Assembly (NCBI GenBank): GCA_016200005.1
Contig: JACQFP010000022.1
Coordinates: 1-64,000 of the forward strand
Origin: Verrucomicrobiota bacterium
Lineage (GTDB): Bacteria; Verrucomicrobiota; Verrucomicrobiia; Limisphaerales; PALSA-1396
Direction of reading: 5' to 3'
Length of the DNA: 64,000 bases
Below the pieces are notes generated by a model that searched no databases, was not told the DNA's origin, and worked only from the letters and a program-made list of their open reading frames with translations. Below, in pieces: positions 49,488 through 61,849 of the stretch. The stretch's first letter is position 1. Each line of letters opens with the position of its first letter. Both the position numbers and the translations under genes were made by a program.

Positions 49488-49597
49488 TGGCGAGTGAGAC
49501 AACAAACCGCTTGAAACCTTCAAGGAGCGGAGCGGAATTGATTTGATTGAGCAGGGCGGGCTTGGCTACTGTCCAACCTGTCTTAACGTCACAAATA

Positions 49598-50566
49598 ATG
49601 GATAACGAGAATCAGACCCGCGGCGCGGTGGAAAATTTCCGGTTGGATTTTCTGGATTGTTGGGCGCGACTTCCCAACAAAGGTTTGTTCTTCGGCCTGC
49701 TCGCGGCGTGGCTGGTCTTGTTTCACTTTCTTGGCAATTCGACCTTCGGCTACGTTGATACCCCCTCATTGATGGGCTGGATGTATAACGCCTACAACAC
49801 GGGCGATGGGCAGGACGGACATGGCAACCTGATTCCCTTCGTGGTGGTGGGTTTGTTCTGGTGGAAGCGCAAGGAGTTGCTGTCGCCCTCGCTCAACGCC
49901 TGGTGGCCGGGACTTGTGCTCATGGCCTTGGCGCTGGGCGCGCACATCATTGGATATGCGGTGCAACAGCCGCGTGTTTCAATCGTCGCATTCTTTATCG
50001 GCGTTTACGGTTTGATGGGGCTGGCGTGGGGGCCGGGGTGGTTGCGGGCGAGTTTTTTTCCGTTTGTGCTGTTTGCGTTTTGCGTTCCATTCGGATCGCT
50101 TGGTGAAAGCATCACCTTTCCGCTGCGACTCTTGGTGACCAAGATTTCCGTGGGCTTCAGTCATGGCGTTTTGGGAATCGATGTGGTCCGGGACGGCTCG
50201 CAGATTTTCGATTCGCAACGTTCGTTTCAATATGACGTGGCGCCGGCGTGCAGCGGCATCCGCAGTTTGATCTCGCTGCTGGCTTTGACGACGGTTTATG
50301 GGTTCGTTTCATTCAAGGCCGGTTGGAAACGGTTGTTGATGATGATCGTGGCCGTCCCGTTGGCGGTGATCGGCAACGTGGTGCGCATCACCGGTGTTAT
50401 TGTGGTGGCGGAGGCGTTCGGACAGGAGGCAGGGTCCTGGTTTGAACAAAAATTCGGCTTTGTAACTTTTGCCGTGGCCATCGCGTGTGTGCTGCTGCTG
50501 GGGCACTGGCTGCGGGAACGGGAATCGGAACCGCCGCTGGCGCTGGAGGAGGCCAGAACAGTATGA
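49598..50566 (+). CDS. Exosortase
   Basis: About 322 residues with eight predicted helices. Exosortases cleave proteins at a C-terminal sorting signal in the inner membrane. The catalytic Cys218 lies in DVAPACSGIRSLISLLALTT and Arg263 in PLAVIGNVVRITGVIVVAEA. The third usual residue, a His about 20 residues after the Arg, is occupied by Glu283 (SWFEQKFG) unless the alignment is shifted. The stop overlaps the start of an EpsI-type gene (ATGA). The target proteins with sorting signals are not in this window. The start at 49598 is preferred because the upstream codons are outside the family. Confidence 0.85.
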   Translation: MDNENQTRGAVENFRLDFLDCWARLPNKGLFFGLLAAWLVLFHFLGNSTFGYVDTPSLMGWMYNAYNTGDGQDGHGNLIPFVVVGLFWWKRKELLSPSLNAWWPGLVLMALALGAHIIGYAVQQPRVSIVAFFIGVYGLMGLAWGPGWLRASFFPFVLFAFCVPFGSLGESITFPLRLLVTKISVGFSHGVLGIDVVRDGSQIFDSQRSFQYDVAPACSGIRSLISLLALTTVYGFVSFKAGWKRLLMMIVAVPLAVIGNVVRITGVIVVAEAFGQEAGSWFEQKFGFVTFAVAIACVLLLGHWLRERESEPPLALEEARTV

Positions 50567-51315
50567 ACCGACAAAAATTGATAGTGTTTGGTACGGGGCT
50601 GCTGTTGATCATCGGCACGGCCGTGGTGTTGGCGCAATTCAAGGTCCATCAAAAACTGGGCCGGCCCGGAGTCAAAACTAGTCCCCTCGCGGGAAGCCGG
50701 AATCTGCGGATTGATTTGCCGGAAAAAGTTCCGGGCTATAAATCCGAACCGGTCGAAACCCCGGAGATCGTAATCAGTATCCTCCCCAAAGACACCAGCT
50801 ATGGTCAGCGCCGCTATCTGGCGGAAGATGGCTTTCAAGCCGTGGTCAACGTGGTGTTGATGGGTAGCGACCGGACCAGCCTGCACAAGCCGCAGTATTG
50901 CGTCGTCGGCGCCGGTTGGACGATCGATCAAACTGAAATGACGACCGTGCCGGTTTCACGCCCGCATCCTTATGATTTGCCGGTCATCAAATTGACGACC
51001 ACCAAACAAGCGATGATCAATGGCCAACGGGTCACGGCGCGGGGAATTTACGTGTATTGGTTTGTCGCGGACCAGGCGATCAGCGGGGATGCGTCGGGCG
51101 CAAAGCGCATGTGGTCTTTGGCCACACATCTTTTGCGCACGGGCGAATTGCAGCGTTGGGCGTACGTCACTTATTTTGCCGTGTGCGCGCCGGGCCAGGA
51201 GGACGCGACGTATCATCGCCTGCAACAACTGATGGCGGTTTCGGTGCCGGAGTTTCAGTTGGTGCCGCGACCGACGGCGATGGCGGAAGCGTCTTCAAGG
51301 CCGGCGGGGAGGTAA
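50563..51315 (+). CDS. Exosortase-associated EpsI-family protein
   Basis: A 250-residue protein with one N-terminal helix (LIVFGTGLLLIIGTAVVLAQ). The EpsI/DUF3485 domain has LPEKVPGYKSEPVETPEIVI, TSLHKPQYCVVGAGWTIDQT and VYWFVADQAISGD. EpsI-type proteins accompany exosortases in glycan loci and are thought to help in exporting or processing the sorted products. The ATG at 50563 overlaps the exosortase stop by four bases, so the two are made together. A purine-rich region just before the ATG (CTGGAGGAGGCC) can serve as a ribosome-binding site. Confidence 0.87.
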   Translation: MNRQKLIVFGTGLLLIIGTAVVLAQFKVHQKLGRPGVKTSPLAGSRNLRIDLPEKVPGYKSEPVETPEIVISILPKDTSYGQRRYLAEDGFQAVVNVVLMGSDRTSLHKPQYCVVGAGWTIDQTEMTTVPVSRPHPYDLPVIKLTTTKQAMINGQRVTARGIYVYWFVADQAISGDASGAKRMWSLATHLLRTGELQRWAYVTYFAVCAPGQEDATYHRLQQLMAVSVPEFQLVPRPTAMAEASSRPAGR

Positions 51316-51426: not shown

Positions 51427-52818
51427 ATGTTACGCCGGGATCAACAAGTGCGGATGCACATCCACCAGTTGCTGGATGCGTGCTTGTACGCGATCAGTTT
51501 CTGGCTGGCGTATCTGCTGCGCTCCAACGAGCAGATCATTGCCCTGCTGGGGCTGGAGCCCGTCCGCGCGTTTGACCGATACGTCTGGCTCTACCTCGTG
51601 CTGATTCCAGTGGCACCGTTGATTCTGGAATCGCAGGGATTTTATGATCGACCGCTGATTTGCTCCCGTCGCGCGACGGCGTGGCCCTTGCTCAAAGCGT
51701 CGGTCATCTCTTCAGTGGGATTGATCATCGTGTTGTTTTTTACACGCGTGGATCTGGCGCGCTCGGTGGCGGTGTTGTTCGGCGCGATCAGTTTTGTGCT
51801 GGTCTTTCTCAAGGAGGAGTTGATGCAGATGGGATTGCGCAGCAAGTTCGCGCAGGCCCAATTCAAACGGCGGTTCATCCTGGTGGGCACGAGCGAAGAC
51901 ACGGCCCAGATGCGGGCGGAACTGAAAAGGCGGCCGGAGGACGGCATCGTGGCGCTGGCGGAACTGAACCTGAGCGAAACTTCGGCGGAGCAACTGGTCG
52001 ATTTGCTGCACGAACATTCCGTCAATGGAGTCATCATCAACGCCAAACAGGCTTACTTTGACCAGGTTGAAACGGCGATCAAGGCCTGTGAGCGGGAGGG
52101 AGTGGAGACGTGGCTGGTGGCCGATTTCTTCAAGACCCAACTTTCGCGCACGAGTTTCGATGATTTTCACGGCCGGCCGGTGATGGTGTTCCGCACGGCG
52201 CCGGAAGCTTCATGGCAAAGCCTGTGCAAGCAGGTGTTTGATTTTCTGTTCGCGCTGGTGTGCGTGATCGTATTGTCGCCGCTGTTTGTCCTGGTGGCAC
52301 TCTCCATCAAGTTGACATCGCCCGGCCCGATCTTGTTCCGGCAACAGCGTTGCGGTCTCAACGGGCATCCCTTCACCATCTTCAAATTTCGCACCATGGT
52401 CACCAACGCCGAACAGCGCAAACAGGAACTGGCCGCCATGAATGAAATGTCCGGCCCCGTGTTCAAAGTGAGCAATGACCCGCGGGTGATTCCCATTGGA
52501 AAGTTTTTGCGGAAGTTCAGCATTGACGAGTGGCCGCAATTTTTCAATGTGTTGCGCGGCGAAATGAGCGTCGTGGGGCCGCGTTCACTGCCGGTGGATG
52601 AAGTGAAGCGATTTGATGACATGGCGCATCGGCGGCGGTTGAGTGTGCGGCCTGGGATGACCTGCTTGTGGCAGGTGAGCGGGCGCAACGAGGTGAAGGA
52701 TTTCAAGGATTGGGTGCGGCTGGATCTGGAGTACATCGACAACTGGTCCCTATGGCTCGACCTGAAAATTCTGTGGCGCACGGTGCCGATTGTCCTGGCG
52801 GGGACCGGGGCGAAATGA
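51427..52818 (+). CDS. Polyprenyl-phosphate sugar phosphotransferase (WbaP/WcaJ-like)
   Basis: A 463-residue enzyme with four N-terminal helices, a CoA-binding-like Rossmann domain (FILVGTSEDTAQMRAELKRR) and the C-terminal transferase. The latter has the membrane anchor QVFDFLFALVCVIVLSPLFVL, then SPGPILFRQQRCGLNGHPFT, FKFRTMV, KFSIDEWPQFFNVLRGEMSV and VGPRSLPVDEV. It moves a sugar phosphate from a UDP-sugar onto undecaprenyl phosphate and so starts the glycan. The combination with exosortase and EpsI just upstream is the classical exosortase/exopolysaccharide arrangement. Confidence 0.93.
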   Translation: MLRRDQQVRMHIHQLLDACLYAISFWLAYLLRSNEQIIALLGLEPVRAFDRYVWLYLVLIPVAPLILESQGFYDRPLICSRRATAWPLLKASVISSVGLIIVLFFTRVDLARSVAVLFGAISFVLVFLKEELMQMGLRSKFAQAQFKRRFILVGTSEDTAQMRAELKRRPEDGIVALAELNLSETSAEQLVDLLHEHSVNGVIINAKQAYFDQVETAIKACEREGVETWLVADFFKTQLSRTSFDDFHGRPVMVFRTAPEASWQSLCKQVFDFLFALVCVIVLSPLFVLVALSIKLTSPGPILFRQQRCGLNGHPFTIFKFRTMVTNAEQRKQELAAMNEMSGPVFKVSNDPRVIPIGKFLRKFSIDEWPQFFNVLRGEMSVVGPRSLPVDEVKRFDDMAHRRRLSVRPGMTCLWQVSGRNEVKDFKDWVRLDLEYIDNWSLWLDLKILWRTVPIVLAGTGAK

Positions 52819-52912
52819 GAATTCAAAATTAGAAATTAAAAATGCAAAATTCAAAATGTCAGACGACGACCCGCCGGAGTTTTTTCATTTTTCATTTTGA
52901 ATTTTTCATTTG
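52819..52912. repeat. AATTCAAAA-word inverted repeat before the UDP-xylose synthase gene
   Basis: AATTCAAAATTAGAAATTAA and AATTCAAAATG (52820-52858) are mirrored by TTTTTCATTTTTCATTTTGA (52881-52900) and ATTTTTCATTTG. The repeat fills the space between two genes and ends two bases before the ATG at 52913, so the gene has no ordinary Shine-Dalgarno site. Confidence 0.85.
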
Positions 52913-53857
52913 ATGAAATCAAACCAGCCCACCTCGGTCGTCACCGGCGGCGCCGGTTTTCTCGGTTCGCACCTGGTGGACCTGCTGCTGAAGCACGGCC
53001 ACAAAGTCATCGCCATGGATAATTTTGTGACCGGGACGGTGGACAACATTGTGCATCTGGGCGGCAATCCCAACTTCAAATTCATCCAGCAGGACGTGAC
53101 GGAATTCATTTTCCTGGATGTGCCGGTGGATTATGTCTGGCATTTTGCCTCGCCGGCCAGCCCAATCGATTACCTGGAGTTGCCGATTCAGACGATGAAA
53201 GTTGGCTCGTTGGGCACCCACAAGGCGCTCGGGCTGGCCAGAAACAAAGGCGCGAGGTTTCTGCTGGCCTCCACCTCGGAGATTTACGGCGATCCTTTGG
53301 TGCATCCGCAGACGGAGGATTACTGGGGGAACGTGAATACCATCGGACCGCGCAGTTGTTACGATGAGGCGAAGCGTTTTGCGGAAGCGATGACGATGGC
53401 CTATCATCGCGCGCATGGCGTGGACATTCGCATTGTGCGGATCTTCAATACTTATGGGCCGCGGATGCGATTGAATGATGGGCGGGTGGTGCCGGCGTTC
53501 ATCGGGCAGGCGTTGAAGAACAAGCCGCTCACGGTTTTTGGCCAGGGGCAGCAAACCCGGAGCTTTTGTTATTGTTCGGATTTGATCGAGGGTATTTACC
53601 GGCTCATGATGAGTTCGACGCGGTTGCCGGTCAACATTGGCAATCCCGATGAGATGACCGTGCTGGAGTTTGCGCGGGAGATCATCCGGATCACCGGCGC
53701 CCGCAGCCGGATTGTTTTCAAACCGCTGCCGCAGGATGATCCGAAGCAGCGTCGGCCCGACATCACCCGCGCGAGCAGGTTGTTGGGTTGGTCGCCCAAA
53801 GTCAGTCTGGCGAAGGGATTGAAGACCACTGTCGATTTTTTTCGCGACAAAGTTTGA
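52913..53857 (+). CDS. UDP-glucuronate decarboxylase (UDP-xylose synthase)
   Basis: A 314-residue enzyme. [20 protein letters not shown] binds [23 protein letters not shown] and [10 protein letters not shown] are the substrate-side signature of UDP-xylose synthase; [20 protein letters not shown] and the catalytic YDEAK ([16 protein letters not shown]) follow, then [20 protein letters not shown]. It decarboxylates UDP-glucuronate to UDP-xylose. The ATG at 52913 directly follows a short-word repeat. The glycan of this cluster therefore probably contains xylose or a sugar derived from it. Confidence 0.94.
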
Positions 53858-54025: not shown

Positions 54026-55960
54026 ATGTTAAATACGAAGTCATTTTTGGCAGTGGATTTTGGGGCCGGCAGTCTCAAGGTGGCGGAGTTTGAAATCAAT
54101 GAAGCTGGCGGACTGCTCCTGAAGCAATACGGCTTGAAATCGCTCGGAGCAGAGGGGGCGCAGGAATCCAAGCGCGAAAGCGTGATGCTGAAGGCCCTGC
54201 AGGAATTGCTGGCGGAGCGCGGATTCCGGGCGAAGAACATCAACGTGTGTGCGCCCGGCTTCCATGTCTTCTCCAAATTCGTGAAATTACCGCCGGTGGA
54301 CGCCTCCAAAGTCACGCAGATCATCCAGTACGAAGCCCAACAAAACGTGCCCTTCCCGCTCGCCGAAGTCGTCTGGGATTACCAGATTTTAGGCGCGACG
54401 CCCACGGGTGAATTGGAGGTGTTGTTGGTCGCGATCAAGGCGGACATTGTGGAAGGGCTGTTTCGCGTGGCGGACTCAGCCGGGCTGCGTTTGCAGTTGG
54501 CGGATGTGTCCACGGCGGCGATGTGCAACGCCTTCCGTTTCAATTATGGCGACCTGGAAGATTGCACGATGCTTTTGGACATCGGGGCCAAGACCAGCAA
54601 CCTGCTGTTTTTCGAGAAGGGAAAAGTTTATTCGCGCAGCATCAACATCGGCGCCAATTCCATCACGCAGGATTTTTCCAACGAATCGAAACTGGGTTTT
54701 ACCGAAGCGGAACGGCTGAAGATCAACGAAGGGTTTGTCAGTCTGGGCGGCGCGTACGAAGAACCGGAGAATCCGCACCAGGCGGCGATCTCCAAAATCG
54801 CCCGTCAATTCATGACGCGCCTGCACATCCAGGTGAACCAGACGATGCAGTTCTACCGCGGTCAACAGGGCGGCTCGGCGCCGGCGCGATTGTTTCTGTC
54901 GGGCGGCGCCTCGATCATGCCTTACACGGCGCAATTCTTCGCGGAAAAACTCAATGTGCCGGTCGAATATTTCAATCCCTTCCGCAATGTGCAGATCGAT
55001 CCCTCCATCAATCTGGAGGAACTGGCGCGCGTGGCTCATTCCCTGGGCGAGACCGTGGGTTTGGGCCTGCGCAACTTGGCGCGCTGTCCGATCGAACTGA
55101 ATTTGATGCCGGAAAGCACGCTGCGCTGGCAGCAGATCAACCAGAAGAAGCCGTACTTCATCGCCACCGTTTTCAGTCTGGTGCTGGTGATTGTAGCGAC
55201 CGGCTGGCTGTTCGATCAGTTGGCGGATGTGAAAACCGCCGAATTGGAAAAGCTGACCAAGGAAGTCGAGCCGTTGAAGGAGCGGGAAGCAAAGTTCACT
55301 GCGGCGTACGGAGATTTGAAGAAGCAGATCCAGGACGCCGACCGCGTGACCGATTGGCTTGAAGGCCGCTATCATTGGGCCACAGTTTTGACCGAAGTGC
55401 GGCAGGTGTTGATGAAAGTTGAGGCGACCACCAAACAGCGGTTGCGCACCGATACGGGAGTTTGGATTGAGCGAATCGCCGTTGGAAAACCGGAGGAGCA
55501 GGGCCTGATGACAGAGTCACCAGCAGAGGCCGGCATGGCTGGCCCCATGGGCATGCCGGGAATGAATCCAGAACAAAGACGATTGTTTGAACAACGTTAC
55601 GGATTAAGGCCAAAACTTCCGCCCTCGGACGTGCCCGCTCCGGATCAGCCGGCGGCTGAAGCACCCCCTGCGGACGGAGGGCAACCGGCCGCGCCCATCG
55701 GCGCAAAGCCAAAGAAAGGAAAAGGCGAGACCAATGAACTGGCGGTGGCCACGCTGACCTTCCGGGCCGTCAACCTTAACAGCGTGGACCCTGCCGCCAA
55801 CACGGAGATCGCGGGTGAGGTGTTGAAGGAACTCCGGGCCAGCGACCTGTTCGATCCGGACGGAACCAAAATCGATAAGAATCTGGTTTTGGACGAAACC
55901 ACGGGGTTGACCTTTTCCTTCGGCATCTCCCTGAAAATCAAGCGGCCCCTGGAACTGTAA
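54026..55960 (+). CDS. PilM-like pilus complex protein (Amuc_1101 family)
   Basis: A 644-residue protein. Residues 1-360 have the actin-like fold of PilM (FLAVDFGAGSLKVAEFEINE, MLLDIGAKTSNLLFFEKGKV, ARLFLSGGASIMPYTAQFFA). A membrane helix at about 377-396 (FIATVFSLVLVIVATGWLFD) and a coiled coil follow, as in PilN/GspL, so two pilus functions are fused. A Pro/Met-rich linker holds FEQRYGLRPKLPP (521-533) before a ferredoxin-like C-terminus. It leads the operon with the Amuc_1100-, 1099- and 1098-like genes and should sit on the inner face of the inner membrane. Confidence 0.9.
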   Translation: MLNTKSFLAVDFGAGSLKVAEFEINEAGGLLLKQYGLKSLGAEGAQESKRESVMLKALQELLAERGFRAKNINVCAPGFHVFSKFVKLPPVDASKVTQIIQYEAQQNVPFPLAEVVWDYQILGATPTGELEVLLVAIKADIVEGLFRVADSAGLRLQLADVSTAAMCNAFRFNYGDLEDCTMLLDIGAKTSNLLFFEKGKVYSRSINIGANSITQDFSNESKLGFTEAERLKINEGFVSLGGAYEEPENPHQAAISKIARQFMTRLHIQVNQTMQFYRGQQGGSAPARLFLSGGASIMPYTAQFFAEKLNVPVEYFNPFRNVQIDPSINLEELARVAHSLGETVGLGLRNLARCPIELNLMPESTLRWQQINQKKPYFIATVFSLVLVIVATGWLFDQLADVKTAELEKLTKEVEPLKEREAKFTAAYGDLKKQIQDADRVTDWLEGRYHWATVLTEVRQVLMKVEATTKQRLRTDTGVWIERIAVGKPEEQGLMTESPAEAGMAGPMGMPGMNPEQRRLFEQRYGLRPKLPPSDVPAPDQPAAEAPPADGGQPAAPIGAKPKKGKGETNELAVATLTFRAVNLNSVDPAANTEIAGEVLKELRASDLFDPDGTKIDKNLVLDETTGLTFSFGISLKIKRPLEL

Positions 55961-56012
55961 TGAACAGCAGACAACAGAAATTTCCGGGGCAAGCTGAAAC
56001 TCGAATTTGGTA

Positions 56013-56048
56013 TTCCGATTTCGGATTTCGGATTTCGGATTTCAGATA
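56013..56048. repeat. Heptamer run GATTTCG before the Amuc_1100-like gene
   Basis: Four units of GATTTCG/GATTTCA in a row, the reverse complement of the GAAATCC run at 18651-18676. The run lies in the 98-base space between two pilus genes. Confidence 0.85.
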
Positions 56049-56058
56049 TTGAAATGGT

Positions 56059-57117
56059 ATGGGCTGGATTAAGCGCAATTTATACTTTGTGGTCGGGTGC
56101 CTGGTGGCCTTGGGACTCATGGGCTGGGCGGGATGGTATCTTTACTCCAAGATGACCTTGAACAATTCGGTGAGGGAGGAATTGACGGCGAAGTACGCGG
56201 ATTTGGAGCACTGGAACAAATTGAACCCGCATCCCGGTGACGGCAAGAAAGTGGACAACATCAAGCTGGCCCAGGAACAGCAGAACGAACTGCGCAACTA
56301 CATCAAAAAAGCTCGGAAGTACTTTGAAAAAATCCCCGCGATCCCGGATGCGACGAAGGTAAGCAGCTACGATTTCGCCCGGCAACTGCCTTCCACGATC
56401 GACCAGATGTCGCGCGATGCGACCAACGCGAGTGTGAGCCTGCCGCCCGGCTACTATTTTTCTTTCCAGGCGCAGAAAGGTTCGATGACCCTGGCGCCCG
56501 GCAGTCTCGAACCGCTGGCGGTGAAACTGGGCGAGGTCAAGGCCATTTGCGAACTCCTGTTTCGTGCACGGGTCAACGCTTTGGATGGGTTGCGGCGCGA
56601 GCGCGTCTCCAATGACGACTCTTCGACCACCGCCGGCCTCTCGGATTATCTGGAAAAAAAGTCAGTGACGAATGACTTGGCGGTGCTGACGCCTTACGAG
56701 CTGACATTTCGTTGCTTCAGCGCTGAACTGGCGGCGGTGATGGCCGGGTTCGCCAACTCGCCGCATGGATTTATCATCAAAACGGTCAACGTCGAACCCG
56801 CATCGGCCACCGTTTCAGTGAACGAAATGACGGCGACTCCCGGTCCGGCCTATTCACCGCAGCCGATCATCTCTCCGTATCCCGGGGGGGGCAAGGACAT
56901 GACCGACCGCCAGCGTTTTTTACAACGCTACGGGATCAGGCCGACGGCGCCGCCCGCTGCGATCGTGGCGCCGCCGGTGTCGCCCACCAGTCGTGGAGGC
57001 CTTCCGACGGTCATCAACGAAGGGTTGATCAAGGTCACTCTGCTGGTCGAAGTCGTTAAACTGAAGGAAGAGTCAAAGGAATCAAGACCGAAGCCGCGGC
57101 GACCGGTCGCCAACTGA
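56059..57117 (+). CDS. Amuc_1100-family pilus-like protein
   Basis: A 352-residue protein with an N-terminal anchor (LYFVVGCLVALGLMGWAGWY), a coiled-coil stretch (AQEQQNELRNYIKKARKYFE) and the mixed alpha/beta region LTPYELTFRCFSAELAAVMA, matching Amuc_1100, the PilO-like outer-surface protein of Akkermansia. A linker near the end carries FLQRYGIRPTAPP (287-299), echoing the PilM-like protein. The protein ends in a basic tail. No Shine-Dalgarno site precedes the ATG; the spacer is filled by a heptamer run. It should be in the periplasm, anchored in the inner membrane. Confidence 0.9.
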   Translation: MGWIKRNLYFVVGCLVALGLMGWAGWYLYSKMTLNNSVREELTAKYADLEHWNKLNPHPGDGKKVDNIKLAQEQQNELRNYIKKARKYFEKIPAIPDATKVSSYDFARQLPSTIDQMSRDATNASVSLPPGYYFSFQAQKGSMTLAPGSLEPLAVKLGEVKAICELLFRARVNALDGLRRERVSNDDSSTTAGLSDYLEKKSVTNDLAVLTPYELTFRCFSAELAAVMAGFANSPHGFIIKTVNVEPASATVSVNEMTATPGPAYSPQPIISPYPGGGKDMTDRQRFLQRYGIRPTAPPAAIVAPPVSPTSRGGLPTVINEGLIKVTLLVEVVKLKEESKESRPKPRRPVAN

Positions 57118-57124
57118 AACCCGC

Positions 57125-57910
57125 ATGGACTTGATCAAAAAACACTACGAGAAAGTGCTGCTTGGCCTGGTGCTGCTGGGGCTGGCGGTGGCGGCCGCGC
57201 TGCTCCCGTTGAAGATCTCCTCGGAGAAACAGGATCTGGAAAATCAGCGTCAGGTCAGAACCACCACCAATGTCAAACCCCTGACGAATTTGAACCTGAC
57301 TCGCTATGAGGGGACGCTCCAGCGTTTACAGACTGCCCTCAACTTGAACTTTTCCAGCGGTCACAACCTGGTCAATCCGGTGCCCTGGCAAAAAGCGGCG
57401 GATGGTCACTTGATCCCCATTCGCACGGGCACGGAAGTCGGACCCGGCGCCGTCGTGGTCACTCAGATCACACCGCTGTATCTGATCATCAGTTTTGACA
57501 ACGTCACCGTGGCGGGAAATCTGATCGGCGTCGAGAACGAGGCGGCCGCCACGCCGGACAAGCGACGGAAAAGACCCAGCACGGCTCCCAAGACCGACAT
57601 CTATACCGTCCAGGAAGTGAAAGGGCCGACAAACAATCCCACCGAACTGGTCCTGGTATTGAACGACACCGGCCAACGGGTTTCCATCGCCCCCGAACGT
57701 CCCTTCCGGCGGGTCGAAGGTTATTCCGCTGATTTGAGATACGATCCGGAAAAAAAGAATTTCCCCAAACAGCGGCTCGGCTCCGTGCTGACCTTCGCCG
57801 GAGAGGAATACAATGTCGTTGCCATAACTGCGAGCGATGTCGTATTGTCCGCCAAATCGACTGGAAAAAAAACGACCATCAAATTTAATCCATCAGCTCC
57901 GCCGCGTTGA
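57125..57910 (+). CDS. Amuc_1099-family pilus-like system protein
   Basis: A 261-residue protein with one N-terminal helix (KVLLGLVLLGLAVAAALLPL) and a beta-rich periplasmic part. The part includes GPGAVVVTQITPLYLIISFD and a C-terminal strand set (GSVLTFAGEEYNVVAITASD). Position between Amuc_1100- and Amuc_1098-like genes, with seven bases to the former, supports the family call. It may link the inner-membrane pilus platform to the secretin, as PilP does, although similarity to PilP is not obvious. A basic linker (DKRRKRPSTAP) sits in the middle. Confidence 0.85.
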   Translation: MDLIKKHYEKVLLGLVLLGLAVAAALLPLKISSEKQDLENQRQVRTTTNVKPLTNLNLTRYEGTLQRLQTALNLNFSSGHNLVNPVPWQKAADGHLIPIRTGTEVGPGAVVVTQITPLYLIISFDNVTVAGNLIGVENEAAATPDKRRKRPSTAPKTDIYTVQEVKGPTNNPTELVLVLNDTGQRVSIAPERPFRRVEGYSADLRYDPEKKNFPKQRLGSVLTFAGEEYNVVAITASDVVLSAKSTGKKTTIKFNPSAPPR

Positions 57911-57936
57911 AATTGCAGTCAAACTCAATTCAGACC

Positions 57937-60732
57937 ATGATAAAAGCCGCCAACACCTTACTCTGTTTATTCTTCATTCTGGGCACCGCCGTCGTGTCGC
58001 CAGCCCAGCCGGCTGCCACCGAGGATGCCATCAAGGAAGCCGTGCGACGCGAGGCCAACAAGATCGTCCTGCATCAAAAACTGGCCGAAGCGCAAAACGC
58101 CCAGGGAAGAAACGAACTGGCCAACGCCACCAAACTCTACGAAGCCTCCTGGACCTTGATCCAAAGCATCGGCCCGGCCGAGGTCCAGGCCGAAAGCGAC
58201 CAGGTCATCTCCGGGTTGGTGACGGTGCGGATGGAGCTGGCCCAACAAGCCCGACGACGAGGCGACTACCTGGAAGCCAAACGCCAGATTGACGGCGTGC
58301 TCCGCGTGGACCCGCAGAACGAGGAAACGCTGCTGCTCCAAAAGGAGAACAACAAGGCGTTGGCTGCCCAGGCCGGCAAAGTGCCCAGCCAGGAAGTGCT
58401 CGACCAGTTGCCGGGCATTCACACCAACAAGGTTTACGCCGCCACTCTCGTGCAGGACGGGCGGGTGCTCTTCGAGGCGGGCAAGCTGACGGAAGCGGAG
58501 GCCAAATTGAACCAGGCGTTGAAAGTGGACCCGGGCAATGTGGGCGCCGATTATTACCTGAATTTGATCCGGGAACTTCGCTACGGCAAACTCGCCCGTG
58601 AACGGGAGAAAACCTCCAAGGACAAGTTGGTGGACGTGGAACAGGCCTGGGACAAGCCGGTCCAGCGGGAAACGTTGCAGGTGCCCAACCCCTATGCGCG
58701 CTCCGAGTTGATTCACACCGGCAAGGGCCGTCAGGCCATCCTCTCCAAACTGGACCGCATCCGGCTGGACGAAGTTTCCTACGATGGATTGCCCTTGAGC
58801 GAAGTCGTCAAGACCTTGAACATCGAAGCCAGGAAGCGTGACCCGGACAAGCGCGGGGTCAATTTCATTATCAACCCGCATGTGGATGCGTCCCTCGTAA
58901 CGCCCAGCACGATTCCCGGCGCAGCGCCGACGATTGATCCGACCACTGGCCTGCCGGTCACCACGGCGACCGTCACCGGGGGTGAACAAGTGGACATGGG
59001 TGCCATCGCCATCAAAATCAACCCTCCCATCACCGACGTTCGTCTGGCCGATGTGCTGGATGCGATCATTAAAGTTGCCGAGCGACCAATCAAATATTCC
59101 ATCGAAGATTATGCGGTGGTCTTTTCCGCGAAATCCGCCGAAGCCGCGCCGCTCTACACGCGCTTTTTCAAAGTGGACCCGAACACGTTTTATCAGGGAC
59201 TCGAAAGTGTGGGCGCAATTTCCTTCGGCGACATTCAAACCAGTAGTGGCGGTGGCTCGAGTGGCGGCGGCGGCGGCACGAGTGGTGGTGGCGGCACCTC
59301 GGGTGGCCAGGGCGGACAGGGATCCAGCGGTACGATTATTCCTCGCGTATTCGTCGCGGGGGGTATCAGTGGTCAAGGCGGTCAGGGCGGGGCCGGCGGT
59401 GGTGCTGGCGGCGGGGGCGGAATCAGTGCCAGCGCCTTGACGGGAGCCGGAGGAGCGGGCGGCGCGGCGGGTACGGGGGGTGGCGCCGGTGGACAGGCTG
59501 GCGGGGGCGGCTTGAATTTTGTCACCCGCCAGAGTCTGGTTGACACGGTTCAGGCCACGGTCCGCAATTTCTTTTTTGCCTGCGGCGTGGATTTGAATCC
59601 TCCCAAAAACCTTTTCTTCAATGATCGCACTGGAATGTTGATGGTGCGGGCGACGCTGCAGGACCTCGACATTGTGGAGTCCGCCGTGCAGACGCTGAAC
59701 ATCGCGCCGCCGCAAGTGACGATTGAAGCGAAGTTTGTTGAAATCACTCAGGATGATTCGCGCGCTTTGGGATTCGATTGGTTTCTCGGCAATTTTTTGA
59801 TGGGCAATGGCAAAGTCGTTGGCTCCGGTGGTTCGCAACCGTCTCTCAATGGGTTGCCTGGGGCGGTTCCCGGCAATCAGCAAGGGAGCTTTCCCGGCAC
59901 CTCCCCGTTTACGACGCTCCCTTCCTCATCGACCGATCAGATGATCACCAGCGGGCTGCGCAACAGCGCGCCAACCTTGGCAACGTTTACGGGCATTTTA
60001 ACGGACCCGCAGTTTCGCGTCGCGATTCGCGCGTTGGAACAGCGGCAAGGGGTGGATCTCTTGAACGCGCCGAAAGTGACGACTTTGAGTGGCCGGCAAA
60101 CGCAAATCCAGGTCGTGGATATTCGGACCATTGTGACGGGCGTCAATGCCAACCAGACCAGCAGCGGGGGTGGCACCGGCGCCGGCGGCGTCACCGTTGG
60201 CGGCACGGGCGGGGGTGTCGGTTCCACCATTCAACCCACCACGCAAGCTTTACCGTTCGGCCCTGTGCTGGACGTCGTGCCGTACGTTTCTGCCGACGGG
60301 TATTCCATTCAGATGACCATCATCCCCACCTTGACGGAGTTTCTCGGCTATGATGATCCCGGAGCTTTCGTTATCCAGGCGCAAGGTGTGGGGGCGGGCA
60401 ACCAGCCGCTGATCGGGCAATTGCCGCTGCCGCGTTTCCGCAACCGTCAAGTCGTGACCAGCGCCAATGTCTGGGATGGTCAAACCATCGTGTTGGGCGG
60501 ATTGATTTCGGAAGATGTCACCAAGACCAAGGACAAGGTGCCCGTGCTCGGCGACCTGCCGTTATTCGGACGCTTTTTCCGTAGCGAATCATCCTCCACT
60601 AAAAAGAGAAACCTGATCATTTTTGTGACGCCCACCATCATCGACCCGGCGGGCAACCGCATGCACTCGGAGGAGGAGATGCCCTTTGCGCAGACGACAA
60701 TACCGACTCAGCCGCCGGCGGAGAAACCGTAG
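57937..60732 (+). CDS. Type IV pilus/type II secretin (Amuc_1098 family) with Gly-rich insert
   Basis: About 931 residues: signal peptide (LLCLFFILGTAVVSPAQPA), TPR-like repeats (about 30-215; NELANATKLYEASWTLIQSI, KLTEAEAKLNQALKVDPGNV), N-domains, a Gly-rich stretch of about 90 residues (435-526), then the secretin core from VRNFFFACGVDLNPPKNLFF, QVTIEAKFVEITQDDSRALG to VPVLGDLPLFGRFFRSESSS. It forms the outer-membrane ring through which the pilus or its substrates pass. A second Gly-rich loop lies at about 742-765. The ATG at 57937 gives the clear signal peptide; a TTG overlapping the previous stop (57907) does not. Confidence 0.92.
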   Translation: MIKAANTLLCLFFILGTAVVSPAQPAATEDAIKEAVRREANKIVLHQKLAEAQNAQGRNELANATKLYEASWTLIQSIGPAEVQAESDQVISGLVTVRMELAQQARRRGDYLEAKRQIDGVLRVDPQNEETLLLQKENNKALAAQAGKVPSQEVLDQLPGIHTNKVYAATLVQDGRVLFEAGKLTEAEAKLNQALKVDPGNVGADYYLNLIRELRYGKLAREREKTSKDKLVDVEQAWDKPVQRETLQVPNPYARSELIHTGKGRQAILSKLDRIRLDEVSYDGLPLSEVVKTLNIEARKRDPDKRGVNFIINPHVDASLVTPSTIPGAAPTIDPTTGLPVTTATVTGGEQVDMGAIAIKINPPITDVRLADVLDAIIKVAERPIKYSIEDYAVVFSAKSAEAAPLYTRFFKVDPNTFYQGLESVGAISFGDIQTSSGGGSSGGGGGTSGGGGTSGGQGGQGSSGTIIPRVFVAGGISGQGGQGGAGGGAGGGGGISASALTGAGGAGGAAGTGGGAGGQAGGGGLNFVTRQSLVDTVQATVRNFFFACGVDLNPPKNLFFNDRTGMLMVRATLQDLDIVESAVQTLNIAPPQVTIEAKFVEITQDDSRALGFDWFLGNFLMGNGKVVGSGGSQPSLNGLPGAVPGNQQGSFPGTSPFTTLPSSSTDQMITSGLRNSAPTLATFTGILTDPQFRVAIRALEQRQGVDLLNAPKVTTLSGRQTQIQVVDIRTIVTGVNANQTSSGGGTGAGGVTVGGTGGGVGSTIQPTTQALPFGPVLDVVPYVSADGYSIQMTIIPTLTEFLGYDDPGAFVIQAQGVGAGNQPLIGQLPLPRFRNRQVVTSANVWDGQTIVLGGLISEDVTKTKDKVPVLGDLPLFGRFFRSESSSTKKRNLIIFVTPTIIDPAGNRMHSEEEMPFAQTTIPTQPPAEKP

Positions 60733-60733
60733 G

Positions 60734-60893
60734 ATTGGAGTAATGGAGAACTGGAGTAATGGAGCAATGAACAAATGGAGCAATGTGACCCCAACCCTGC
60801 GTCATTCCACCACTCCCGCATCCCCATGTCCGGCTGGAGTAATGGAGAACTGGAGTAACGGAGCAATGGAAAAGCCACACTCCACCACTCCAG
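60734..60893. repeat. GGAGTAATGGAGAACT-word repeat covering the exonuclease start
   Basis: GGAGTAATGGAGAACTGGAG (60738-60757) and its second copy (60836-60855) with the inverse words CATTCCACCACTCCC (60803-60817) and CACTCCACCACTCCA (60876-60890). In frame it reads ENWSNGAM twice. Confidence 0.88.
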
Positions 60894-61849
60894 CGCGCCA
60901 AGGCTGCCTGCTCATTGTTGATGGCCACGCGTACGCCTATCGGGCATTTCATGCGATCCGCCAGTTGACCTCGCCCGCCGGCGCGCCGACGAATGCGATC
61001 TATGGATTCATCAAGATGCTGGGCAAGATGCGCGACGGGCTGCACCCCACACATCTGGTCGTGGTGTGGGACGGCGGTCTGGCCGAAGAACGCATGGCCG
61101 CCTTGCCCGAGTACAAGGCGCACCGCCCCCCCATGCCGGAAAAACTGGAATCGCAACTCGACGACATCGTCAGTTATTTGCAGGCAGCCAACATCGCGTC
61201 CTTTTGCCGGGACGGCGTGGAGGCCGACGACTGGATTGCCACACTGGCCAGGCGTTGGACAAAAGGAAAACTGGAGAACTGGAGTAATGGAGTGATGGGT
61301 TCCGGAACCCAAGACTCCAATACTCCAACACGCCAAGTCCCCCAAGTGGTCATCGCCAGCTCGGACAAGGATTTCATGCAGTTGGTTTCGCCCGCCGTCG
61401 GCTTGTTGAATCCCAACGACAAATCGGAAGCGATTTGGACCGCGGAACAAGTTCGCGCCAAAGCGGGAGTTGAGCCATCGCAAATTGTCGATTGGTTGAG
61501 CCTGGTGGGTGACAGTGTGGACAATATTCCGGGCGTGCCGGGTGTCGGGCTTAAGACTGCCGCTGAGTTGTTGCAGCAATTCGGTTCCGTGGACGGCATC
61601 TATCAGCGTCTTGCTGAGATCAAATCGGAGAGACTGCGGACGAGTTTGCAGGCGGCGGCCGAAGCGGTGCGACGCAATCAGAAATTGATCCGGCTGCGGG
61701 ATGATTTGCCGGGCGAATTTTCTGCGGAAGAACTGGCGCTCAGGCCGGCGGATGCCGCGCGGCTGCGAGTGCTCTTTGCTGACTGGGGATTCAAATCCTT
61801 GCCGGTCGAATCCGGTGCGGTGGCGGAAGCACAGAAGGTTTTGTTTTGA
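60743..61849 (+). CDS. Stand-alone 5'-3' exonuclease (DNA polymerase I N-terminal domain type)
   Basis: The conserved protein begins at about residue 50 with GCLLIVDGHAYAYRAFHAIR, then PTNAIYGFIKMLGKMRDGLH. The metal-site acids are in GVEADDWIATLARR and IASSDKDFMQLVSPA, and the H3TH motif is LVGDSVDNIPGVPGVGLKTA. This is a flap/5' nuclease without polymerase. The first 50 residues and an internal piece (KLENWSNGVMGSGTQDSNTP, 61268-61325) are translated repeats. Any of four in-frame ATGs (60743, 60767, 60842, 60866) could be the start; each lies after GGAG only 2-4 bases away. Confidence 0.85.
   Translation: MENWSNGAMNKWSNVTPTLRHSTTPASPCPAGVMENWSNGAMEKPHSTTPARQGCLLIVDGHAYAYRAFHAIRQLTSPAGAPTNAIYGFIKMLGKMRDGLHPTHLVVVWDGGLAEERMAALPEYKAHRPPMPEKLESQLDDIVSYLQAANIASFCRDGVEADDWIATLARRWTKGKLENWSNGVMGSGTQDSNTPTRQVPQVVIASSDKDFMQLVSPAVGLLNPNDKSEAIWTAEQVRAKAGVEPSQIVDWLSLVGDSVDNIPGVPGVGLKTAAELLQQFGSVDGIYQRLAEIKSERLRTSLQAAAEAVRRNQKLIRLRDDLPGEFSAEELALRPADAARLRVLFADWGFKSLPVESGAVAEAQKVLF
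61268..61330. repeat. In-frame GGAGAACTGGAGTAATGG repeat inside the exonuclease gene
   Basis: GGAGAACTGGAGTAATGGAG (61273-61292) is followed by the inverse words ACTCCAATACTCCA (61315-61328). It is read in frame as ENWSNG ... DSNTPT between the EADD and DKD motifs. Confidence 0.88.

Follow-up and report, generated by a model that had tools for sequence, protein, structure and literature searches.

An RYG peptide shared by two pilus proteins and other envelope proteins of Limisphaerales is a candidate periplasmic docking motif

Why would two proteins encoded in one pilus operon display the same short peptide on disordered linkers? The question is raised by the window, a 64,000-nucleotide stretch of DNA from a Verrucomicrobiota bacterium, in which a first-pass annotation had noted the peptide in a PilM-like and an Amuc_1100-like protein. 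We have established a motif, the proteins that carry it, its joint presence and absence in the two pilus proteins, and genome-specific spellings of it (dialects); a helix is predicted where it lies within disorder. We infer that the peptide is probably an order-specific periplasmic docking motif, read by a single, co-evolving putative partner that would tether its carriers. To our knowledge, little is known about bacterial envelope proteins that share a non-enzymatic docking peptide.

The pilus operon and its two linkers

The features of the operon are as follows.

54026..55960, + strand: PilM-PilN fusion gene (Pfam PilM_2, 5.1e-37; Foldseek matches to PilM 5EOU and PilM-PilN 2YCH)
55484..55735, + strand: disordered linker in the PilN part, joining strand 479-486 to strand 571-582 (residues 487-570; AlphaFold2 pLDDT ~33-40 in most blocks)
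55562..55624, + strand: motif copy 1, MNPEQRRLFEQRYGLRPKLPP, residues 513-533, from sequence; the sole helix predicted in the linker is residues 515-524
56059..57117, + strand: Amuc_1100-like (PilO-type) gene (Foldseek matches to Amuc_1100 6LAD/6KNY, then to PilO 2RJZ/5UVR)
56800..57027, + strand: disordered linker in the Amuc_1100-like protein, joining strand 238-247 to strand 324-335 (residues 248-323; AlphaFold2 pLDDT 46-64 per block)
56899..56955, + strand: motif copy 2, MTDRQRFLQRYGIRPTAPP, residues 281-299, from sequence; the sole helix predicted in the linker is residues 283-290
57125..57910, + strand: Amuc_1099/PilP-like gene (open reading frame), without the motif; RYG in 1 of 47 orthologues from motif-bearing genomes
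57907..60732, + strand: PilQ-like secretin gene (Pfam Secretin, 3.2e-32), without the motif; RYG in 2 of 45 orthologues from motif-bearing genomes

The PilM assignment of the first carrier exceeds curated cut-offs (128 bits against 27 for PilM_2; 141.3 against 133 for TIGR01175), and the protein scores 471.6 bits with the Amuc_1101 family (NCBIfam NF045709), over residues 1-462 only and below the curated cut-off of 650. Its PilM domain (residues ~10-350) is followed by a PilN-type segment, IELNLMP (356-362), in which E357, N359, L360 and P362 are invariant among 46 aligned sequences, then by a transmembrane/coiled-coil helix (375-473) and a PilN-type periplasmic domain, modelled by AlphaFold2 as strands alternating with helix. 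No PilN family model matched the fusion protein; its second part has the short PilM-binding segment, one transmembrane helix, coiled coil and ferredoxin-like domain by which PilN is recognized. The second carrier matches the Amuc_1100 family (NCBIfam NF038287) with 64.7 bits (E 9.5e-18), under the curated whole-protein cut-off of 180, and is therefore called Amuc_1100-like only; its model has the fold of ten Amuc_1100 chains (Foldseek E < 1e-6, TMt 0.67-0.79). In both AlphaFold2 models a long, low-confidence linker breaks the domain after a strand, and the motif forms the isolated helix within it. Both linkers are hypervariable among orthologues.

The peptide lies exactly where it had first been reported, as FEQRYGLRPKLPP at residues 521-533 (F521-P533; 55586-55624, + strand) of the PilM-like protein and as FLQRYGIRPTAPP at residues 287-299 (F287-P299; 56917-56955, + strand) of the Amuc_1100-like protein. 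The shared element extends past these 13 residues, to MNPEQRRLFEQRYGLRPKLPP in the PilN part against MTDRQRFLQRYGIRPTAPP in the Amuc_1100-like protein. When the two linkers were compared, the top 13-residue window held 9 identities; when one linker was shuffled 20000 times, this value was reached once. Because the PilM-like protein is a PilM-PilN fusion, the linkers sit in a PilN-type and a PilO-type domain; these folds are related, as Foldseek searches with the AlphaFold2 models showed, so the first-pass description of two different folds fails. Its flexible linkers are disordered as proposed, but they interrupt ferredoxin-like domains, and no separate last domain comes after them. Loss of the motif from the nearest relatives, which had been named as the finding that would speak against it, was looked for: the closest relative, of the same genus, keeps both copies (ERLFRERYGGRP in PilN, ERQLFQERYAFRRP in the Amuc_1100-like protein).

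Other features of this region were also recorded. A short tandem of the 'ttcggatttcgga' type lies at 56010-56050, just 5' of the Amuc_1100-like start. The pilus operon comes directly after polysaccharide genes (51427-53857), beside which lies an apparent exosortase/EpsI-type gene pair (49547-51315). An exonuclease-like (5'-3') open reading frame at 60686-61849 (+ strand) contains apparent in-frame repeats (ENWSNGAM...HSTTP, ~3 variants), which look like an intergenic DNA repeat taken up into the coding sequence.

Form of the motif and its joint conservation across the order

The order is named here as Limisphaerales (Verrucomicrobiota subdivision 3) from the records returned by the PilM-PilN search, which were assigned to Pedosphaera, Limisphaera, Limisphaerales and Verrucomicrobia subdivision 3. 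Across the order the motif follows the pattern M-[DSN]-P-x-[LM]-x-x-R-Y-G-[LI]-x-P, with [FY]-x-x-RYG in the relatives of the window; the consensus in the PilN linker is M-[DNS]-P-x-[ML]-[MRLA]-x-R-Y-G-[LI]-x-P-x-G. Helices in proteins are commonly capped by a hydrophobic staple, by an N-cap residue with proline at N1, and by glycine plus a hydrophobic residue as the C-cap. The motif reads as a self-capped mini-helix of this kind, with D/S/N-P as the N-cap, about eight residues, and R-Y-G-[L/I] as the C-cap, often with proline next.

The Amuc_1100-like gene is present in 126 of 146 same-order genomes, and 105 same-order operons were usable for joint counts. RYG occurs in 52/105 PilN linkers (shuffle expectation 0.9) and in 55/105 Amuc_1100-like linkers (shuffle expectation 3.2). 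Both linkers carry it in 48 operons and neither does in 46, leaving 11 mixed cases (PilN only in 4, Amuc_1100-like only in 7). In an unbiased count of tripeptides, RYG was by far the top shared one, in 48 genomes against 0.03 expected when each linker was shuffled; Pro/Ala/Gly runs aside, the other enriched tripeptides (YGL, ARY, RRY, MDP and QRY) are mostly pieces of the same motif. The association was replicated in 49 further genomes, of which 15 have RYG in both linkers, 4 + 3 in one and 27 in neither (p 1.4e-6). No RYG was found in the linkers of 12 orthologous pairs from outside the order. The PilP-like and PilQ orthologues do not carry the motif as a rule, and contain no segment confined to motif-bearing genomes.

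Related genomes cluster and independent changes are few, so Fisher values exaggerate the independent support for joint conservation. On the tree, 14 label changes are needed for RYG in PilN and 11 for RYG in the Amuc_1100-like protein. Along independent, well-supported branches the two change alike ~4.4 times and oppositely 0.1 times; the corresponding test gives a median p of 0.125, or 0.06 with a looser motif, with too few pairs for significance.

Carriers outside the operon and genome dialects

The pattern M[DNSG]xx[LMIVF]xxRYG[LIMVF] gave ~100 matches in the 146 same-order genomes, many of them away from the operon, compared with ~6 for the reversed pattern; a phylum-wide search of 278 genomes yielded matches at control level only. 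Carriers outside the operon, which were gathered by searching with the motif itself, include ABC-2 permease-like proteins (motif in the tail), CvpA-like, TPR and vWA/YfbK-type proteins, secretin-like fragments, coiled-coil proteins with a pilin-like or DUF1559-like end, and others. Most have a signal peptide or a transmembrane stretch, and the motif often lies 0-40 residues before the C-terminus. The periplasmic side of the ABC-2 permease tails is a prediction read from the charges beside the last hydrophobic stretch. Some matches were set aside: F[EK]xRYGLxP in a folded region of a conserved enzyme (L191, L194, L197, L207, L245), which we read as 2,3-bisphosphoglycerate-independent phosphoglycerate mutase, is a coincidence, and chance matches were found at G000:C20:135025 (no gene-like frame), at G000:C45:77123 (a 14-residue frame) and, outside the order, in L273 (a short frame).

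The genome under study has two extra carriers, a zinc-ribbon membrane protein ending in AQRAEFQKRYGLRPKP and a coiled-coil membrane protein with MTAEQRRLFEQRYGIRP. Where the Amuc_1100-like protein contains RYG, the best match to the zinc-ribbon protein has an RYG tail (7/7 genomes), and where it does not, no such tail is present (0/13); the seven genomes are mutually related, and the lower matches may be paralogues. The CvpA-like family occurs in 138/146 same-order genomes, and its tail carries RYG in 29 of the 47 genomes where both linkers have RYG, against 1 of 25 where neither does. This association comes largely from a single clade and does not count as independent evidence: only 6 changes on the tree account for the CvpA-like motif, and the independent-branch test gives no signal. 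Two non-operon proteins, L222 1627-3234 (- strand) and L230 1798-4407 (- strand), have several motif copies between repeated domains; the L222 protein resembles part of a pilus secretin (Amuc_1098 family, below cut-off).

Within a genome, unrelated carriers tend to spell the motif alike. MDIRMLMRYGL occurs twice in G016 and MDPRMMARYGL twice in G029, while three G115 proteins have xELAKRYG[LI] and three G045 proteins have RYG[KR]xx[RQ]P. The best-pair identity outside RYG is 0.549 within genomes versus 0.361 (sd 0.018) after permutation, and none of 2000 permutations reached the observed value. The fraction of identical residues encoded by the same codon is 0.348 within genomes and 0.334 between them; codons are thus no more alike within genomes, and the copies have not recently spread as DNA. 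As judged from this codon comparison, selection acts on the motif residues and not on the DNA. If the carriers co-evolved with one reader, their spelling but not their codons would be expected to agree, as is seen here. In genome G017 (L103, L374), three carriers have what looks like a variant without the arginine (MKAYGLT, FESVYGRG and KFNDIYNHK), possibly a diverged dialect.

A putative common partner, its rivals and known systems

It is proposed that the mini-helix, which many unrelated inner-membrane and exported proteins display at a C-terminal tail or in a disordered linker, would be bound by one common periplasmic partner, conserved but drifting by lineage. Through such binding the pilus platform would be tethered, by its PilN and PilO arms, to a scaffold common with ABC-2 permeases, CvpA-like, TPR and other envelope proteins. 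The docking partner suggested in the first-pass annotation gains from the joint presence and absence of the motif, from the other envelope carriers and from the genome dialects without codon similarity; among the operon's own products, the PilP-like and PilQ proteins gave no candidate for it. We give about even chances to the broader proposal of a whole-envelope peptide code, in which a periplasmic hub would recognize the RYG mini-helix on dozens of unrelated Limisphaerales proteins, the pilus included, and hub-peptide co-evolution would give rise to lineage dialects.

Other uses of one peptide, such as self-association or modification, would leave the same traces. The mini-helix might bind its own copies, gathering its carriers in the periplasm as stickers on disordered spacers would. 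Amuc_1100-like proteins with up to four tandem motif copies and Gly-rich spacers (three or four in L116 2501-3754 and L113 2501-3724) fit this account, as do the low complexity of the linkers and the shared dialects, yet many carriers have a single copy near the very C-terminus, and a fixed, capped helix seems to suit a pocket ligand better than a generic sticker; we regard self-association as unlikely. Somewhat less likely still is a recognition site that marks exported proteins for a modifying or processing enzyme, acting for example at the invariant tyrosine or cutting beside RYG. It would account for the many unrelated exported carriers, the one conserved tyrosine and the genome-specific dialects, but a cut at RYG would fall between strands and sever both the PilN and the PilO domain, and modification presumably seldom needs a capped helix with spaced hydrophobic residues.

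PilN- and PilO-type domains pair in known pilus platforms, and the two linkers could be hairpin extensions that touch each other or PilP and therefore co-vary. Their similar positions in the two domains and the joint presence and absence of the motif agree with such a purely local role, which is nevertheless improbable given the same motif and dialect in ABC-2 permeases, CvpA-like, TPR, vWA and other proteins outside the operon. DNA-level spread or chance, which the variable, low-complexity linkers might invite, is barely credible, chance in biased linkers being ruled out by the composition shuffles and the reversed-pattern control, and a DNA repeat or gene conversion by the codon comparison, with no nucleotide similarity beyond the peptide in 36-base motif windows.

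If one hub reads the peptide, pilus machines, transporters and sensors would be organized together in widespread, little-studied bacteria, and the dialects would offer a ready-made system for tracing the co-evolution of a hub with many ligands. The motif makes the putative partner findable, through the gene content of motif-bearing versus motif-free genomes or by a pull-down with a 20-residue peptide. Comparison of the carriers with Pfam and NCBIfam turned up no named signal of this kind, and full-text searches of open-licence papers returned no description of the motif.

Among known systems, the closest is Amuc_1100 of Akkermansia muciniphila (6LAD, 6LAF, 6KNY; NF038287), which has the same fold as the second carrier and the same kind of pilus operon; the Limisphaerales protein is distinguished by a score below the family cut-off and by the RYG linker motif, which was absent from 12 relatives outside the order. 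The PilM domain, PilN segment and PilO-type fold are common to type IVa PilM-PilN and PilO (5EOU, 2YCH, 2RJZ, 5UVR), whereas here PilM and PilN are fused and the linkers are long and motif-bearing. In Pseudomonas PilO, functionally important residues are also reported in unstructured regions (PMC5805733), a parallel to the present linkers that does not involve the RYG motif. PEP-CTERM/exosortase (PMC1569441) and GlyGly-CTERM/rhombosortase (PMC3237569), both found by genome comparison, are systems in which one partner serves a single short signal borne by many unrelated exported proteins. In contrast to these, the RYG motif, with its putative partner, is not tied to the C-terminus and lacks a transmembrane helix and a basic tail: many copies are internal, in linkers, and tail copies have no hydrophobic helix after the motif. 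Eukaryotic short linear motif networks, in which a hub recognizes short peptides in disordered regions (ELM, PMC8728146), offer the more general likeness, from which the RYG motif differs in its bacterial periplasmic setting, its restriction to one order and its whole-genome dialect.
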